Positions 42,006 to 50,308 of a stretch of DNA of 64,000 bases are shown here, piece after piece. Origin of the DNA: Solirubrobacter phytolaccae. Its GTDB lineage: Bacteria; Actinomycetota; Thermoleophilia; Solirubrobacterales; Solirubrobacteraceae. Position numbers and translations under genes: made by a program. The DNA lies in NCBI RefSeq assembly GCF_027587195.1, contig NZ_JAPDDP010000026.1:1-64000 (forward strand). The letters run 5' to 3'. Position 1 is the stretch's first letter; each line of letters begins with the position of its first letter. A model generated the notes under the pieces. The model searched no databases. It had not been told where the DNA came from and saw only the letters and a list, made by a program, of their open reading frames with translations.

Positions 42006-42091
42006 GCGGAGCGAGTCTATCCCCGTAACTGGACGGCAACCTCCCGGTTTTGGCGCATTGGAACTCTCATGGCGTTCCAATCCACAGGATC

Positions 42092-42097
42092 AGGAGG
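42092..42097 (+). promoter_or_regulatory. ribosome binding site deciding the propeller-protein start
   Basis: AGGAGG four bases before GTG 42102. An upstream in-frame ATG at 42069 has no such site and would spoil the signal peptide. Confidence 0.65.
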
Positions 42098-42101
42098 ATC
42101 T

Positions 42102-44819
42102 GTGCCTTTGCTCAGCAGGATGGTCGCCGCAGCGGCGACCGGTGCCGTGCTCACACTGGTTGGATCGGGGTCCGCGCTCGCGGCCCCGACGGCGTTCGTG
42201 ACCGACGGCAACGCGTCCGTGTTCCCGGTCGACGTCGCCACGGGCGTGCCCGGCGAGCGGATCGCGCTCACCACCGGTGAGACCCAGCTCGTCGTCGCCT
42301 CGCCGGACGGCAAGACCATCTACACCCTGGGGGCCAGCCCCGGGCTCCTGTCGGTGATCGACGCGGCCACGCGCACGGTCAAGTCGACGATCACGATCGG
42401 CACGGTCCCGGCCGGCCTCGCGATCACACCGGACGGCACGAAGCTCTACGTGACGCGCCAGTTCTCGCGCCAGCTCATCCCCGTCGACGCCGCGACCGGC
42501 GCGACCGGCCCGGCGATCACGACCGGGAACGGCCCGCGCGGGATCGCGATCACGCCCGACGGCACGAAGGTCGTCGTGACGAACTACAGCGGCAGCCAGG
42601 TGCAGATCGTGTCGGTCGCGACGGGCGCTGTGCTGTCGACGATCCCGGTCCCCGGCAACCCGCAGTCCGTCGTCATCACCCCGGACGGCAAGACCGCGTG
42701 GGCGTTCGCCGAGACCAACAAGCAGCTCGTCCCGATCGATCTCGCCACCGCGACGGCCGGGACGCCGATCGTGGTCGGGGGCACGACGCCGCGCACGATC
42801 GCGCTCGCGCCGGACGGCACGTCGATCTACGTGTCGGACTGGGCGAGCGGTGATCTCACGCCGTTCGACCTCGCCACCGGCGCGCCGCGGACACCGATCG
42901 TCAGCCTGGGCGCGACGAGCGTCGCGTTCACACCCGACGGCAAGACCGGCTACGCCCCCGGCGGCATGAGCGGCAAGGTCTTCCGCTTCGACGTCGCCAC
43001 GGGCGCGCTGGGCACGCCGATCGAGCTCGGCAACTCCCCCGCGTACGTCGCGTTCTCGAACGTCACGCCCACTGAGCAGGGCCCGCCCGCGCCGACCTAC
43101 ACGCTCTCGCACGAGTACCTGTCGGGCACCGTGGGCGATCCGACGAACGACCGCGTCACGATCACCGTCGCGCAGAAGACGGCGGCCGGCGGCGATGTCG
43201 ATGCTTCGGCGTTGCGCGTGGAAGCGGTGCTGTCGTCGAACCCGGCGGTCGCGGCATTGAGCGGCGTGACCGTGAGTGGGATGGGCGCGACCCGGTCGGT
43301 GTCGATCACGCCCGCGGGCGGCGTCGGCTACGCGGACATCGCGCTGCGGGTGAGCGGCCTCGGAACCGAGACGACGACCGCGATCGTCAACTACGCCGCC
43401 TCGGGCGCCGCGCCGACCGCGACGAGCCGCTCGCTGATCGGCAGCGCGGACGCGTCGGCCGCGATCGACGCCGGCGACGGCTACATGCTCGTCGCCGACG
43501 ACGAGAGCAACATCATCAAGCTCTTCAAGCGCGACTCCTCGGAGCGGCGCGTGAAGGACTGGGACTTCCAGACGCGCGTGCAGGCGCCGCGCGAGGTCGA
43601 CATCGAGGCCGCGACGCGCGTCGGCGACACGATCTACTGGAGCGGGTCGCTCGGCAACAACAAGGAGGGCAAGCTGCGGCCGGAGCGGGCGTTCGTGTTC
43701 ACGACGGTGGTGAGCGGATCGGGCGCGAGCACCGAGCTGACGTTCGGGAACCGCTACGCCGGGCTGCGCGACGACCTGATCGAATGGGACCAGGCGCACG
43801 GGAATCGCTTCGGGTTCGCGGCCGGCGCGGCCGAGGGCAAGATCCCCAAGATCCTCAACGGCTTCAACGTCGAGGGGCTGGAGTTCGCGCCGGGGTCGAC
43901 CTCGGTGGCGTACGTCGGGTTCCGGGCGCCGCTGGTGCCCGCCGTTCCGGGTGGCAAGGCGCTGGTCGTGCCAGTGCTCAACTTCGACCAGGTCGCCTCG
44001 GCGAGCGCGAAGGCGACGTTCGGCGAGCCGATCCTGTGGGACCTCGGCGGGCTCAGCATCCGCGACATCCGCAAGAACGCGCTCGACCAGTACCTCGTGC
44101 TGGCCGGCTCCTACGACGCCGGCGGGCGCTACGAGCTGTGGACCTGGGACGGTGTGTCGTCGCACGCGCCGCGCAAGTCGCCGACGCCGCTGCCCGCCCT
44201 GGACACCACGGGCGAGGACCCGGGTGCGTGGGAGGCGATCGTCGACGTGCCCGCGCCGCTGCGGACCGGTGCGCCGGTGCAGCTGCTGATGGACCAGGGC
44301 GCGGCGGACCTCTACCACGACGGCCAGGAGGCGAAGTCGCTCAACCCGGAGTGGAGCAAGGGCCGGTCCGACTGGTTCTCGCTCGAGCTGCCGACCGACA
44401 TCACGGTGGGCCTCTCGGGCACGGTGCCGCTGACGCTCGGGCTGTCGCTGGGCTCGGGCTCGGCTTCGTTCGGCACGTTCCTGCCGGGCGTCGGCCGGGA
44501 TTACGTGGCGCCGCTGGACGCGACGGTCACGGCGACGGCGGAGGCGAGCGCGTTGACGGTGTATGACCCGAGCAGCGTCGTGCCGGGCCGGCTGGTGAAC
44601 GGGACACGGGCGCTGGCGACGCCGGTGGCGGCGCGAGCCGGGACGGGTGCGTTCGCGCCGGTCGGGAGCGCCGCGGTGACGCTGGGCGCCTGGACCGAGC
44701 CGGTCAGCAACGAGCCCGTCGCGCTCGAGTTCCGGCAGTCGATCGGGGCGCGTGAGGGCCTGAGCGCGGGCGAGTACGGCAAGACGCTCGTGTTCCTGCT
44801 CGCACAAACGACGCCGTAG
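42102..44819 (+). CDS. secreted YVTN beta-propeller / DUF3616-like protein
   Basis: A 905-residue exported protein. A signal peptide is cleaved after about residue 27 (SALA then APT). Residues about 30-325 hold six YVTN-type propeller repeats, each with a core like AITPDGTKLYV. A beta-rich linker (about 330-460) leads to a region about 465-760 resembling DUF3616 (YMLVADDESNIIKLFKRD, NGFNVEGLEFAPG). The last ~135 residues (about 770-905) form a domain also found at the end of the convergent nuclease. No catalytic motif is seen in the propeller. Probably a surface or extracellular binding protein. Confidence 0.8.
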   Translation: MPLLSRMVAAAATGAVLTLVGSGSALAAPTAFVTDGNASVFPVDVATGVPGERIALTTGETQLVVASPDGKTIYTLGASPGLLSVIDAATRTVKSTITIGTVPAGLAITPDGTKLYVTRQFSRQLIPVDAATGATGPAITTGNGPRGIAITPDGTKVVVTNYSGSQVQIVSVATGAVLSTIPVPGNPQSVVITPDGKTAWAFAETNKQLVPIDLATATAGTPIVVGGTTPRTIALAPDGTSIYVSDWASGDLTPFDLATGAPRTPIVSLGATSVAFTPDGKTGYAPGGMSGKVFRFDVATGALGTPIELGNSPAYVAFSNVTPTEQGPPAPTYTLSHEYLSGTVGDPTNDRVTITVAQKTAAGGDVDASALRVEAVLSSNPAVAALSGVTVSGMGATRSVSITPAGGVGYADIALRVSGLGTETTTAIVNYAASGAAPTATSRSLIGSADASAAIDAGDGYMLVADDESNIIKLFKRDSSERRVKDWDFQTRVQAPREVDIEAATRVGDTIYWSGSLGNNKEGKLRPERAFVFTTVVSGSGASTELTFGNRYAGLRDDLIEWDQAHGNRFGFAAGAAEGKIPKILNGFNVEGLEFAPGSTSVAYVGFRAPLVPAVPGGKALVVPVLNFDQVASASAKATFGEPILWDLGGLSIRDIRKNALDQYLVLAGSYDAGGRYELWTWDGVSSHAPRKSPTPLPALDTTGEDPGAWEAIVDVPAPLRTGAPVQLLMDQGAADLYHDGQEAKSLNPEWSKGRSDWFSLELPTDITVGLSGTVPLTLGLSLGSGSASFGTFLPGVGRDYVAPLDATVTATAEASALTVYDPSSVVPGRLVNGTRALATPVAARAGTGAFAPVGSAAVTLGAWTEPVSNEPVALEFRQSIGAREGLSAGEYGKTLVFLLAQTTP

Positions 44820-44824
44820 AACGA

Positions 44825-44855
44825 CCGAGGGGGCGCCGCAGTGGCGCCCCCTCGG
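44825..44855. terminator. bidirectional terminator between two secreted-protein genes
   Basis: A perfect 13-bp stem: CCGAGGGGGCGCC (44825-44837) pairs with GGCGCCCCCTCGG (44843-44855), loop GCAGT. It sits between convergent stops at 44819 and 44883, so it can serve both strands, though T-tracts are short. Confidence 0.75.
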
Positions 44856-44882
44856 GTTACGTTCGGCGCGCTCGGCGCGCGG

Positions 44883-47633
44883 TTACGGCGTGGTGGTGCT
44901 CAGGGTGAACGTGAGCGTCTTGGAGTAGCTGCCGGTGCGCAGGCCGTCCTCGGCTGCGATCGACTGCTTGAAGCCGACCGTGACCTTGCGGACGCTGATC
45001 GGCTCGGTCCAGGACGCCAGCGCCAGCGGGCTGCTGTCGGTCTTCAGCGGCGCGTACGTGCCGCCGTTGGCGTTGACCTGCACGGGCGTGCGGAGCGCGT
45101 GCACGCCGTTGACCAGGCGGCCGGTGGCCGTGGTGGAGGCGTCGTTGACGCTCAGCGTCGCATCCGCGCCGGTCGAGGTGACCGTCGCGTCCAGCGTCGT
45201 CGTGTAGTCGCGAGCCACACCCGGCAGGAACGTGCCGAACGAGGCGTCGCCGATCGTCAGCGCCAGCGTCGCGGGGACGCTGCCGGTGAGGTTGCTCGGC
45301 TGCGAGACGCTCGCGCCCTTGGCGAGCTCGAACGTCACGACCGGCGGGTCATGGTCGGAGATGCCGCTGCCGTCGCCCTCGGGGCGCTCGTAGTAGTCGT
45401 TGTCGAAGTGCACGTAGCGGAAGTCCGTCACGCGCGACTCGAGGCCGGAGGAGACGAAGATGTGGTCCAGCGTCTGCAGGTGGCCGTTGAACTTGTACGA
45501 GTAGGCCTGGCCCACCGGCGCCTTGGTCCACAGGTTCGCGAGGGCGTTGCCGCCCGCGAGCGTGCTGAGCGCGGTGGAGAACTCGAAGTCGTTCAGGTCA
45601 CCGGCGACGAGGACGTTCTTGCCCTCCTGCTGCATCTGCTTGGCGGCCGTGTTGACCCAGGCCGCCTCGTCGATCCGGCACTGGTTCTGGTGCGACTGCG
45701 ACGCCCAGTGGTTGCTGAGGGCGGTGAAGGTGATGTCGCCCTTCTTGAGCTCGAGCGCGTACGGGGCGCGGTCGAACAGCTTGCCCGGGTAGAGGTCGCA
45801 GACGCCCGCGTTGGCCCACGGGCCGGGGACGTCGGCGCCGATCACGCGGCCGTTGGTGGCCGTCGTGCCGTTCTTGACGAGGAAGCCGGGCGCGATGCCG
45901 CGGCCGTCGTTGTTCGGGGCGATATAGCCCGTGTAGTTGCCGAGCTTCGCGGCCAGGCCGGTGAGCGCGTTCTTGCCGTTGAGGACCGCGACTTCCTGGA
46001 CGGCGATGACGTCCGGCTCCTTGAGGAAGTTCTTGATCGCCAGGGCGATCGTGCGGATGCGCTCCTCGTACTCGGCGTCGGTGATGGTGTGGCCGTCGTT
46101 GCTCTCGCCCACCGGGAACAGGTTCTCGACGTTGAAGGAGGCGACGCGCAGCGTGTTGTCCTCCGGCGTCGGGACGGCCGGCGGGTACGCGGCGTTGATC
46201 GGGCCGCGCTCGATCGTCGGGGCGGTCGCGCCCGTGAGCTGAGGCACGATCTTGAAGAAGCTGTAGCTGTAGCTCAGCGGGCCCGTGACGCTCTTGACGA
46301 CGTCGAAGAGGTCCAGGTCGACCTGCGTGAGGCTGCGCCACGGCAGGCGCGGGTCGGCGGGGTTGCCGGCGCCACCGTCGGGCGAGATGCCGAGCTCGGC
46401 GGGCGCGTCCGACCACGGGGTGGTCTCGGCGGCCGCGTCGTTCTTGCGGAACAGGCGCGTGGCGTCCGTTCCGGGCTCGACGAAGACGTCACGGAACTTG
46501 GTCGTGCCGCCGCCGGTGGCGATGCCGACCGGAAGCGTCACGCGCATGCCCTGCAGCGCGCGGTAGTACGGGCGGTTGATCGGGTCCTGGTTCTCGGCCT
46601 TGGTCTGGTCGAGGACGACCGCCTCCGGGAGCGGCTTCTTGTCCGTGGAGACGGAGACGGCGACCGTGTTCAGGTCGACTTCCTGGGCGTTCGGGTTCGT
46701 CGTGGAGCCGACGCCGTCCGGCACGATCTCGACCTGGCCGAACTTCGCGTTCGCGCGACCCTCGATGACGACCTCACGGCCGATGACGTCCGCCGGGTTG
46801 GTCGCGCTGCGGCGGATGCCCGCCACGAAGATGGCGCTCGAGGTGGTGGCCGTCGCCGAACGGGTCTCCTCCTGGATCCAGATGCCCGAGTCGCCCTTGT
46901 AGATGGCGTCGTAGGAGGAGCCGTAGAGGTTGTCGATGCCGGTCACGATGCCCTTGATGCGGACGCGCGTGCCGTTGCACGCCGACGAGGCGCCGAGCGT
47001 TTGGATGCTCGTGATGCTGGTGACCGCCGGGGCGGTCTGGCAGCCCTCGCCGGGCTCGACCGGACCACCGGTGCAGGCGCTGCCGCACTTGGTGGGGGTC
47101 GGCGTCGTCGGACCGGTGAAGTCGGCCGCGTTGTCGTCGGTGTCCTGCGTGCCGCCGTTCTTGCGGATGAACCCGCCGGGGCCGGTCGACGGCTGGGCGA
47201 GGCCCGCGCCTTCGCGGTAGGCCTGCGGGGCGGCGGTCGAGCCGAAGGCGTCGACGGTCGCCGACCCGTTGCGCAGGGCGATGCCGCCCGTGGCCGTGAT
47301 ACCCGTGCCGTACTGCACGTCGGACTGCGCCGTGAACGTGCCGGCCGAGTTGGCGAACACGAACGTCCCGTTCGCCGGCAGCGAAGCGCCGGCGGGCACG
47401 GTCGCCCGCACGCTGTTGGTGCCGGCGCTGTTGGCACCGACGATCGTCCAGCCGCCGATCGCGACGGCGGCGCCGGAGACGTTGCGGAGCTCGATGACTT
47501 CGTCGTTGCCGCCGCCGGGGCCGCCGAACGCCACCTGCGAGATCACGACCGGGCCGGCCGCATGCGCTGCGGGTGCCGCGAGCGCAAGCGCGGCGATCGC
47601 CGTCGTCGCGACGGTCAGAAGACGGGGTTTCAC
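44883..47633 (-). CDS. secreted ExeM/NucH-like endonuclease with lamin-tail domain
   Basis: A 916-residue exported protein. The GTG start gives a signal peptide cleaved after about residue 25 (AAHA then AGP). A lamin-tail domain follows (about 26-130: VVISQVAFGGPGGGNDEVIEL, GGWTIVG). Next are a Cys-containing linker and an OB/ExeM-like region (about 200-520). The endonuclease/exonuclease/phosphatase domain (about 540-775) carries LRVASFNVENLF, VIAVQEV, GDLND and SDHDPP, i.e. the Asn, Glu, Asp and His of the active site. The last ~135 residues match the C-terminal domain of the convergent propeller protein. Likely degrades extracellular DNA for nutrient or biofilm purposes. Confidence 0.88.
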   Translation of the reverse strand: MKPRLLTVATTAIAALALAAPAAHAAGPVVISQVAFGGPGGGNDEVIELRNVSGAAVAIGGWTIVGANSAGTNSVRATVPAGASLPANGTFVFANSAGTFTAQSDVQYGTGITATGGIALRNGSATVDAFGSTAAPQAYREGAGLAQPSTGPGGFIRKNGGTQDTDDNAADFTGPTTPTPTKCGSACTGGPVEPGEGCQTAPAVTSITSIQTLGASSACNGTRVRIKGIVTGIDNLYGSSYDAIYKGDSGIWIQEETRSATATTSSAIFVAGIRRSATNPADVIGREVVIEGRANAKFGQVEIVPDGVGSTTNPNAQEVDLNTVAVSVSTDKKPLPEAVVLDQTKAENQDPINRPYYRALQGMRVTLPVGIATGGGTTKFRDVFVEPGTDATRLFRKNDAAAETTPWSDAPAELGISPDGGAGNPADPRLPWRSLTQVDLDLFDVVKSVTGPLSYSYSFFKIVPQLTGATAPTIERGPINAAYPPAVPTPEDNTLRVASFNVENLFPVGESNDGHTITDAEYEERIRTIALAIKNFLKEPDVIAVQEVAVLNGKNALTGLAAKLGNYTGYIAPNNDGRGIAPGFLVKNGTTATNGRVIGADVPGPWANAGVCDLYPGKLFDRAPYALELKKGDITFTALSNHWASQSHQNQCRIDEAAWVNTAAKQMQQEGKNVLVAGDLNDFEFSTALSTLAGGNALANLWTKAPVGQAYSYKFNGHLQTLDHIFVSSGLESRVTDFRYVHFDNDYYERPEGDGSGISDHDPPVVTFELAKGASVSQPSNLTGSVPATLALTIGDASFGTFLPGVARDYTTTLDATVTSTGADATLSVNDASTTATGRLVNGVHALRTPVQVNANGGTYAPLKTDSSPLALASWTEPISVRKVTVGFKQSIAAEDGLRTGSYSKTLTFTLSTTTP

Positions 47634-47773
47634 GATGGAGGAGTCCTTTCCGCGGGGGAATCCGAAAGACGGCGTCAACTTACAGGTGCGTCGCGCTGAG
47701 AGGTGACGGTTTGGTGACCAACCCCGGTGGTTGCCCGGTATGAGCGGGTGTGGCGTGTGTCCGGCTGCGGACA

Positions 47774-50308
47774 TCAGCGTTGGATCGCCAGGCGTCCGTC
47801 GTCGGCGTGGAGGCGCACCGTGCCGTCGGTGTCCGTGCGGACGACGGTGGGCACGGCCGCGGCCAGCGCGCGCGTGGTGGACGGGTCCGGATGGCCGTAC
47901 GTGTTCTCCTTACCCACCTCGATCGCGGCGACCTTGGGCTGCAGTTGCTGGAGGAGGGCGGGCAGGCCCGGGTCGGCGCTGCCGTGGTGGGGCACCTTGA
48001 GCACGTCGACCGGAGCGAGCGCGAGCCGGCTGAGCACGGGCGACTCGGCGTCCGCGGTCAGGAACACCGACACGTCCTCGGCCTCCAGGCGCATCACGAG
48101 CGCGTTGTCGTTCGGGTCGCCGCTCGCCGTCCAGCCCGCGGGGCGCCGTGGCGGCCACAGCACGTGGAAGCGGAGGTGGTTGAGCGTGATCGTCTCCCCC
48201 GCCGCCGGCGCGTGGACCTTGTGACGGGTGAGCGTGCGCTGCACGGCCGAGCTCCAGCCCGCGCCGCCGTCGACGATCAGCCGGGGTCGGTACTTGGCGA
48301 TCACGGCCGGGGCGGCGCCCTCGTGGTCGGTCTCCGCGTGGGTGAGCATCAGCGCGTCCAGCCGGTCGACGCCCGCCTCGCGCAGGCGGGTGAGGATCGG
48401 CCCGTCCGGCTTGCCCGTGTCGATGAGGACGGTGACGCCGTCGTGCTCGATCAGCGTCGCGTCGCCCTGGCCGATGTCCAGGAACGTGACCCGCAGGACA
48501 CCGGGCGCGGGCGGCGCCGTCGTGGTGCGGCTCAGCACGACGACTGCGGCGACGACGGCGAGCGCGAGCGCCGCGGCGGCGGGCGTGACGCGGCGGCGCC
48601 TGCGCGGGGTTCGGCTCCAGCGTTTGAGCGCCAGGGCGGTCAGCAGCACGAGCCCGAGCCAGCCGGCCAGGACGAGCTGCGGGCTCGCGTGGATCTCGAC
48701 CACCGACAGCGGCGTGGCCGCCGTGATCCGCGCGACGTGCTGGACGTAGACGAGCAGCGGCGCGGTGAGGAACGTGAACGGGACGGCGAGCGGTGCCGCC
48801 AGTTGCGCCGCCGCGCACGCCAGCACGCCGAGCCACATCACGGGCGCGATCGCCGGCGCCGCGAGCAGGTTCGCGGGCAGCGCGGCCAGCGAGACCTCCT
48901 CGAAGTGCATCGCCATCAGCGGCGCCGTCCCGATCGTCGCCGCGAGCGTGAGCGCCGCCGCCTCGGCGACAGGGTCGGGCAGCCGGCGTTTGAGCGGTTC
49001 GGCGAGCGGCGCGAACCCGGCCAGCAGCGCCGCGACCGCCGCGAACGACAGCTGCCAGCCCGGCTCCTGCACCGAGCGTGGGTTGAGCACCAGCGTCACC
49101 GCCGCCGCGAGCAGCAGCGCGTACCAGCGCTGCGCGGGCCGCCCCGCGAGCGCCGCGACCAGGCCCGTGATGCCCATCACGCCCGCCCGCTGGATCGATG
49201 GCCCGGCGCCCGTGAGCGGCACGTACAGCGCGATCGCGAGCGCGGCGACGACCAGCCGCGCGCGCAGCGGAAGCCCCAGCAGGCTCGCCACCGCGAGCAC
49301 GAGGATCGCGAGCAGCATCACGTTCTGGCCGCTCACCGCCAGGATGTGCGCGAGCCCCGAGCGCTGGAAGTCGTCCTTGACCTCGCCCGTGAGCTGCTCG
49401 TCCGCGCCGATCACCATCCCGCGCAGCAGCGCCGCCTCGGGCGCGGCGAGCCGCTGCGCGAGCCCGGCCTCGGCCCGCCGCCGCACGCCGTCGAGCACGC
49501 CGGCCACGCCTCCCCGCCGCGTGCCGGTGGCGTCGACGCGCGACGCGTCGATAGCCGCGTGCGCGTTGCGCAGCCGCTGATAGGCGTCCGCGAACCCGAG
49601 CGGCGCGACCCGCCCGGACACGGCGACGATGTCCCCGACGGCGACCGAGGGCCCCGCCCCGTGTTTCGCCTCGCCGCCCGTCGCCTCGTCCGCCGTGACC
49701 CCGCCGCCCGCAGCGGCCCCAACCCCGGCCGCCGCCTCACCACCTGCCGCCACGCCCGCCGTAGCCCCGCCGCCCAACGTCGCGCCCGCCGTGGCCCCGC
49801 CGCCCGTCGTCCCGGGCGCCGGCGCGGCCGTACTTCCACCCTCGCGGGCGGCGCGGGGCGGCCCTGGCCAGGCGCGCGAGCGCAGCACGGCCTGCTCACC
49901 CGCGCCTGGGCCGTCGAGGAGACGGACGCGCGCGACCGCCGGGCCGTGGGCACGCTCGCGGACCGGCTCGAGGACGACAACGCGCGTCGTGACCGAGCGG
50001 CCGTGCATGTCGGCGAGCACGCCGGCGTCCAGCGCCGTGAGCCGCGCGTCCGCGAGCGTCGCGCCGAGCAGCACCGCCGCGGCGGCGATCGGCGCCGGCC
50101 AGGTCGCCCCGGCCAGCGTGGCCGCGGCGAGCGCCGTGGCCACGACCGCCGCGGGGTGCGCACGGCTCAGCAACAGCCCGGCGACCAGCGCGGCGAGCAC
50201 GACGTGCCGTGGGTGCGCTCGCACCGTCGCGAGGGCGAGCCGCGCCCGCGCGGAGGCGCCTCCCGGAGCTTGCTGCGCCGGCACCGGAACCATGTGCGGC
50301 CGCGACAT
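47774..50308 (-). CDS. comEC: competence channel protein ComEC/Rec2
   Basis: An 844-residue membrane protein forming the DNA uptake channel. N-terminal helices lead to an OB domain (about 85-250), the competence domain (about 270-545: GLAHILAVSGQNVMLL, YVPLTGAGPSIQRAGVM) and a C-terminal metallo-beta-lactamase domain (about 605-844: FLDIGQGDATLI, THAETDHEG, PHHGSADPG). Residues about 150-220 are a Gly/Ala/Thr low-complexity insertion inside the OB domain (GGGATAG repeated), unusual for the family. It follows comEA by 10 bases. Confidence 0.92.
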   Translation of the reverse strand: MSRPHMVPVPAQQAPGGASARARLALATVRAHPRHVVLAALVAGLLLSRAHPAAVVATALAAATLAGATWPAPIAAAAVLLGATLADARLTALDAGVLADMHGRSVTTRVVVLEPVRERAHGPAVARVRLLDGPGAGEQAVLRSRAWPGPPRAAREGGSTAAPAPGTTGGGATAGATLGGGATAGVAAGGEAAAGVGAAAGGGVTADEATGGEAKHGAGPSVAVGDIVAVSGRVAPLGFADAYQRLRNAHAAIDASRVDATGTRRGGVAGVLDGVRRRAEAGLAQRLAAPEAALLRGMVIGADEQLTGEVKDDFQRSGLAHILAVSGQNVMLLAILVLAVASLLGLPLRARLVVAALAIALYVPLTGAGPSIQRAGVMGITGLVAALAGRPAQRWYALLLAAAVTLVLNPRSVQEPGWQLSFAAVAALLAGFAPLAEPLKRRLPDPVAEAAALTLAATIGTAPLMAMHFEEVSLAALPANLLAAPAIAPVMWLGVLACAAAQLAAPLAVPFTFLTAPLLVYVQHVARITAATPLSVVEIHASPQLVLAGWLGLVLLTALALKRWSRTPRRRRRVTPAAAALALAVVAAVVVLSRTTTAPPAPGVLRVTFLDIGQGDATLIEHDGVTVLIDTGKPDGPILTRLREAGVDRLDALMLTHAETDHEGAAPAVIAKYRPRLIVDGGAGWSSAVQRTLTRHKVHAPAAGETITLNHLRFHVLWPPRRPAGWTASGDPNDNALVMRLEAEDVSVFLTADAESPVLSRLALAPVDVLKVPHHGSADPGLPALLQQLQPKVAAIEVGKENTYGHPDPSTTRALAAAVPTVVRTDTDGTVRLHADDGRLAIQR

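Follow-up and report, generated by a model that had tools for sequence, protein, structure and literature searches.

A recurrent C-terminal domain of secreted Solirubrobacter proteins as a candidate surface-docking tag in a WxL/WxLIP-like system

The window, a stretch of 64,000 nucleotides of the Solirubrobacter phytolaccae genome (contig NZ_JAPDDP010000026.1 of assembly GCF_027587195.1), holds two convergent genes for secreted proteins, a beta-propeller protein (gene A) and a nuclease (gene B), that end in the same domain. The domain closes 146 proteins of this genome, and it is probably (at a probability of roughly 0.6) a C-terminal surface-docking tag that a dedicated partner protein holds, so that the two would correspond to the WxL domain and the WxL-Interacting Protein (WxLIP) of Firmicutes in a diverged and vastly expanded form. 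Docking is proposed because the layout of the gene cluster is that of the WxL system, with a different docking domain, and because the free, invariant C-terminus is reminiscent of archaic pilus systems; binding to the partner and retention at the wall we infer.

Gene A (42069..44819, + strand) codes for a secreted protein in which a YVTN/lactonase-like beta-propeller and a weakly matching DUF3616 region precede the domain, as assigned from the open reading frame (ORF) and the Pfam and NCBIfam libraries. The ORF is open from 41961, and a signal-peptide heuristic suggests a start near 42069. Its domain copy spans 44409..44816 (+) and ends with the terminal codons for ...LLAQTTP followed by the stop. 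Gene B (44883..47774, − strand), the true start of which may be internal at about 47633, encodes a secreted nuclease composed of a Lamin Tail Domain, an ExeM/NucH-like endonuclease/exonuclease/phosphatase and the C-terminal domain. The latter covers 44886..45308 (−) and terminates in ...TLTFTLSTTTP-stop, the final six codons (44886..44903, −) forming the motif L-S-T-T-T-P with the invariant last proline. The first-pass annotation had placed both copies correctly, and the segments it listed as common to A and B, namely FGTFLPGV-RDY, LDATVT, GRLVNG, WTEP-S, QSI and a final TTP, are all readable in the two proteins. The domains comprise 133–141 residues and share 52% identity over 126 aa (blastp, E=1e-30); a Smith-Waterman comparison of the last 140 aa scored 44.5 standard deviations over shuffled sequences, and the domain search of the genome returned copy A against copy B at 54% (E=6.5e-36).

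Querying the source genome with the domain gave about 150 matches, nearly all reaching the last query residue. The regions around these matches were collected and a profile hidden Markov model (HMM) was iterated until convergence, which is the iterative search that had been put forward as a check. The converged profile identified 146 proteins, each with exactly one copy, never in tandem and always at the C-terminus; the domain is thus not restricted to the two window proteins. No residue follows the domain before the stop codon in 146/146, and all 146 likewise close with proline, the usual ending being L-S-T-T-x-P. Within the family the mean pairwise identity is 58%, the length is mostly 114–144 aa, a G-x-Y is invariant ahead of the last strand, and the consensus contains one W/Y-t-x-P position. 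At the DNA level the similarity between copies is about 68% over the 120 nt that close the ORF and declines to 30%, the background value, right past the stop codon. As the similarity drops at the stop, the codon of the final proline varies (CCG, CCC, CCA or CCT) and all three stop codons are used among the copies, selection is attributed to the protein and its end point. One of the 146 members is decayed (L086, contig C111:5324-5389), with the last ~20 residues or so kept in a 62-aa frame. On contig C113 (30719-41718), four consecutive domain-bearing genes occupy about 11 kb, an arrangement which suggests that local duplication contributed to the expansion.

The view of the annotation that the domain is undescribed was borne out. 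Neither Pfam nor NCBIfam contained a match to the common C-terminal part of A and B even at E=1, no PHROGs model matched the domain, the viral contigs searched held no relatives, and a search of the literature accessible without subscription returned no paper describing a Solirubrobacter domain of this kind. The domain is new to the libraries searched; its operating principle appears to be that of the known WxL system. A removable export or attachment signal, cut by a dedicated transpeptidase or peptidase in the manner of the type IX secretion C-terminal domain (CTD), PEP-CTERM/exosortase or LPXTG/sortase, is by comparison improbable. As in those systems, a C-terminal domain is common to many secreted proteins that are otherwise unrelated and form a large set specific to the lineage; the type IX CTD of Bacteroidota is likewise a single C-terminal Ig-like domain on many unrelated secreted proteins, with a lineage-specific expansion. 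The genome also carries one sortase gene. Still, an LPXTG-like motif, a membrane helix and a basic tail are absent from all domain C-termini, which end LSTTxP-like, and no type IX CTD, PEP-CTERM or other NCBIfam sorting model matched the domain at E<=1. The type IX CTD also belongs to another lineage and has a different terminal motif and partner. One sortase gene does not parallel a set of 146 cargos, and apart from an M48/M56-type gene beside a BlaI-like repressor (see below), the domain clusters lack a recurrent protease or transpeptidase.

The proteins that carry the domain are secreted and of mixed function. A simple heuristic detected a signal-peptide-like N-terminus in 141/146 domain proteins, vs 4/37 control ORFs of the window. 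The cargo ahead of the domain extends up to ~2900 residues and consists mostly of hydrolases, for which Pfam reported M14, S15, M1, M6, S8 and M36 peptidases and GH78 alpha-L-rhamnosidase; further families are ThuA, GSDH, GDPD, amidases, metallophosphoesterases, carbohydrate-binding modules and PKD domains. A beta-sandwich (see below) joined to hydrolases, several of which also contain carbohydrate-binding modules, would be expected if the domain were itself a carbohydrate- or wall-binding module acting without a protein partner. We regard this as very improbable, as the substrates of the cargo span proteins, DNA, phosphodiesters and sugars, and as the domain is always terminal, single and closed by the same residue, none of which a binding module needs; co-occurrence with a WxLIP-like partner is likewise not accounted for.

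The domain is concentrated in one genus. All seven Solirubrobacter genomes (7/7) carry it, with 69 to at least 150 copies each, and other members of the family have 0–3 copies. At class level 12/399 genomes contain any copy, and the sampled genomes of the phylum outside the family contain none. The named loci among the domain relatives are all from Solirubrobacter. Complete copies in the other Solirubrobacter genomes end in proline in 107/107 cases, again with the domain at the stop codon, and the 1–3 copies in relatives from other genera are likewise C-terminal. The more distant secreted versions, which stand alone, have no TTxP tail yet are clearly related (hhalign 98–99%), and contain one W-T-L each. 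Diverged members with a partner devoid of a transmembrane segment also end in proline. Overall, tails ending in proline pair with partners without a membrane helix and tails with another ending pair with membrane-anchored partners, a pattern drawn from few lineages that are not independent.

Where relatives have few copies, the gene for the domain is part of a cluster of secreted proteins together with a ~250-residue protein of two Ig domains, here called the partner, and a ~450-residue protein. The core cluster of Solirubrobacter has the order CHGP-like protein, partner, a small protein consisting of a signal peptide and the domain, and second partner; in the source genome it is found at L286:7713-13896 (contig C80). 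Two more partner genes reside outside the core cluster, and each Solirubrobacter genome has 3–4. At E<1e-20 the partner profile was found in 11/12 domain-bearing genomes vs 0/387 other genomes of the class (Fisher p=1e-20, kinship ignored), and in the twelfth (G220) blastp identified a diverged partner homologue. The partners are very basic, with a net charge of +19 to +39. Longer versions (L237, L238) possess a C-terminal helix with a basic tail, as does L306 judging by its sequence. The CHGP-like proteins form a family of their own (A5; L286:7713-9113), with 4–14 matches per Solirubrobacter genome; they are secreted, ~450 aa long, adjoin the partner and combine the motif W-[AG]-C-H-G-P-x-G with Ig-like segments. 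Behind the core cluster, several Solirubrobacter genomes carry a BlaI-type repressor (PF03965, 73.5 bits) as well as a membrane protease-type gene that is M48/M56-like; this pair suggests regulation of the cluster by envelope or cell-wall stress.

Comparison of 23 partners with three WxLIPs gave an hhalign probability of 96.9% (E=1.3e-10) over 202 columns that include both Ig domains, whereas a reversed control scored 0.1%. The partner profile moreover retrieves a protein at L307 that is recognized by PF06030 (WxLIP_PGBD, 36.6 bits, cut-off 27.3) and located beside PF13731 WxL proteins, and it matches WxLIPs adjoining WxL genes at L300 and L304. From the profile comparison and these links we conclude that the partner is a divergent WxL-Interacting Protein of the DUF916-DUF3324 type. 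Against Pfam directly, the Solirubrobacter partners yielded sub-threshold matches to WxLIP_HBD (E 0.12–0.14; 12.6–12.7 bits, cut-off 28.9). A single-sequence model of the partner reached pLDDT 51 and a fold search led to generic two-Ig proteins, for which reason neither was used as evidence.

The WxL system of Firmicutes has three components in one cluster, namely a small WxL protein, a large one whose C-terminus is a WxL domain, and a WxLIP. AlphaFold predicts the insertion of a WxLIP strand into WxL, and the large protein is believed to be kept at the wall by its WxL domain (PMC10599100, PMC9772566). The Solirubrobacter proteins resemble this system (PF13731, PF06030, PF11797) in the C-terminal domain of ~115–140 aa on large secreted proteins, in the small protein of signal peptide and domain, in the WxLIP-homologous two-Ig partner encoded in the same cluster, and in the strongly basic nature of several partners. 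They differ from it in that the cargo consists mainly of soil exoenzymes, and in scale, with ~146 copies in a single genome as compared to 724 WxL proteins in the whole of a published survey (PMC10599100).

The domain was modelled with AlphaFold2 from an 89-row alignment, structure prediction being another check proposed by the annotation. The model, computed for the copy of gene B, is confident (pLDDT 94.6) and describes an all-beta domain, a beta-sandwich. The nearest solved folds are archaic chaperone-usher pilins, namely Csu 7zl4_A (Z 9.3; 2.7 Å over 118 residues) and 6fm5 (Z 9.0), followed by the TasA-like protein 9ikj (Z 8.1, 22% identity over the alignment). As the Foldseek E-value of the top folds is about 2e-3 and Z near 8–9 is modest, these matches are taken as a fold in common and not as proof of function. 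No PDB sequence matched the domain profile, a search of the PDB by sequence for a WxL structure found none, and the SCPU profile PF05229, run over the source genome, matched none of the domain copies.

These folds bring up fibre assembly, in which the domain would be a pilin-like subunit, the two-Ig partner its chaperone, and the enzymes would be strung in donor-strand-exchange fibres in the style of TasA/TapA or chaperone-usher pili. Archaic pilus chaperones anchor the C-terminal carboxylate of the subunit (PMC4654587), which would explain why the domain always ends the chain, and the core cluster holds a stand-alone subunit. The likeness to CsuA/B and SCPU (PF05229) proteins thus includes the fold, a two-Ig partner and a chain that ends at the last strand; the likeness to TasA and TasA-like proteins is one of structure. 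We nevertheless consider fibres unlikely. Subunits need a free N-terminal donor strand, whereas in nearly all proteins here a cargo is attached at the N-terminal end of the domain, and the domain occurs once per protein instead of in tandem. The structural matches are weak by Foldseek (E just 1.9e-3), with middling and common Z values. Chaperone-usher pilins show no sequence match to the domain, which is found as a C-terminal fusion to enzymes, and ushers work in Gram-negative groups to which this lineage does not belong; TasA-like proteins are stand-alone fibre subunits.

Returning to the docking tag, its mode of action may be envisaged as follows. The enzymes would cross the membrane via their N-terminal signal peptide, upon which the C-terminal beta-sandwich, for which a free ...L-S-T-T-x-P end would be required, would bind the dedicated two-Ig secreted partner. 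The partner is envisaged to recognize both the folded domain and the chain end, by strand donation and/or via the free C-terminus, as in chaperone–pilin pairs. Being basic, it could sit on anionic wall polymers. The stand-alone small copy in the cluster would be the equivalent of a small WxL protein, the ~146 large proteins with cargo would be equivalents of large WxL proteins, and the exoenzymes would be retained at the cell wall. The suggestion of the annotation that this is a surface sorting or anchoring domain stands in so far as the invariable C-terminal position, the signal-peptide hosts, the unrelated cargos and the co-occurrence of a WxLIP-like partner fit such a role; the anchoring step itself we infer.

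Several observations weigh against the docking tag. Profile comparison of the domain with three WxL sets gave hhalign probabilities of 0.7–5% over short stretches, and the consensus of the 146 members contains no paired W-x-L motifs; in place of WxL similarity it has the conserved terminal proline. Unlike WxLIPs, all Solirubrobacter partners lack a C-terminal membrane helix, which bears on how they are held at the surface. With 3–4 partners for ~146 cargos, binding would have to be promiscuous. The partner could also be a folding chaperone instead of an anchor, and common descent confounds the co-occurrence of domain and partner.

A tentative, though possible, extension is a separate actinobacterial display system gated by the C-terminus, with a pilin-fold tag that is non-WxL by sequence and a TTxP end captured by WxLIP/PapD-like two-Ig partners, serving ~150 exoenzymes per genome. 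It would form an evolutionary bridge between the Gram-positive WxL/WxLIP and the Gram-negative chaperone–pilin systems, and the pairing of proline-ending tails with helix-less partners is consistent with it. If the docking proposal holds true, it shows how a soil actinobacterial genus decorates its surface with exoenzymes and assigns a role to ~150 "hypothetical" C-termini in each genome, which would be about 2% of the genes at an estimated ~7,000 genes. The location of such enzymes would be predictable from their last residues, and a short C-terminal display tag may become available. The WxL/WxLIP principle would reach past the WxL domain, and a link between WxLIPs and pilus chaperones would be testable. 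What is surprising here is how far the domain has expanded, and that a bridge to pilus chaperones is possible.

An assignment of the domain to WxL at the sequence level was rejected after Pfam searches and the profile–profile comparison with three WxL sets. By hmmscan, PF13731 matched neither the two window proteins nor the distant relatives; over the whole source genome it matched 0/146 domain proteins, and one other protein was sub-threshold. A stand-alone secreted protein, L265 (contig C136:96135-96485, −), matches WxL below the threshold (21.1 bits, E=9.4e-4), and a WxL-like protein proper may therefore coexist with the new domain in the source genome. In the same class, two loci from genomes devoid of the new domain (L307, L308) contain clusters of at least three genes of the WxL type, and L307 includes a WxLIP-type protein as well; genuine WxL systems thus occur in this class.

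As the annotation had described, the DNA of the A and B domains forms a diverged inverted repeat; the two arms are 66% identical over 344 nt (blastn E=1.8e-22), and a strong hairpin lies at the centre. The repeat is real and has no meaning of its own: among the 146 copies, A and B are the sole pair arranged tail to tail within 500 bp, and it is therefore considered a mere by-product of convergence. Since the similarity stops at the stop codon and a single tail-to-tail pair exists, a functional DNA element and a mobile DNA cassette were both ruled out. The perfect hairpin at the centre (44826..44854, intergenic) has a 12-bp GC stem and a 5-nt loop, and the segment containing it (44817-44885) folds at −48.4 kcal/mol (z=−4.4). 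It is probably the terminator of both convergent genes, without a T-tract, as read from the nucleotides. Directly upstream of the nuclease gene B lies a gene identified by reading as a ComEC/Rec2-like competence protein (47774-50308, −), a neighbour that could hint at DNA uptake or scavenging.
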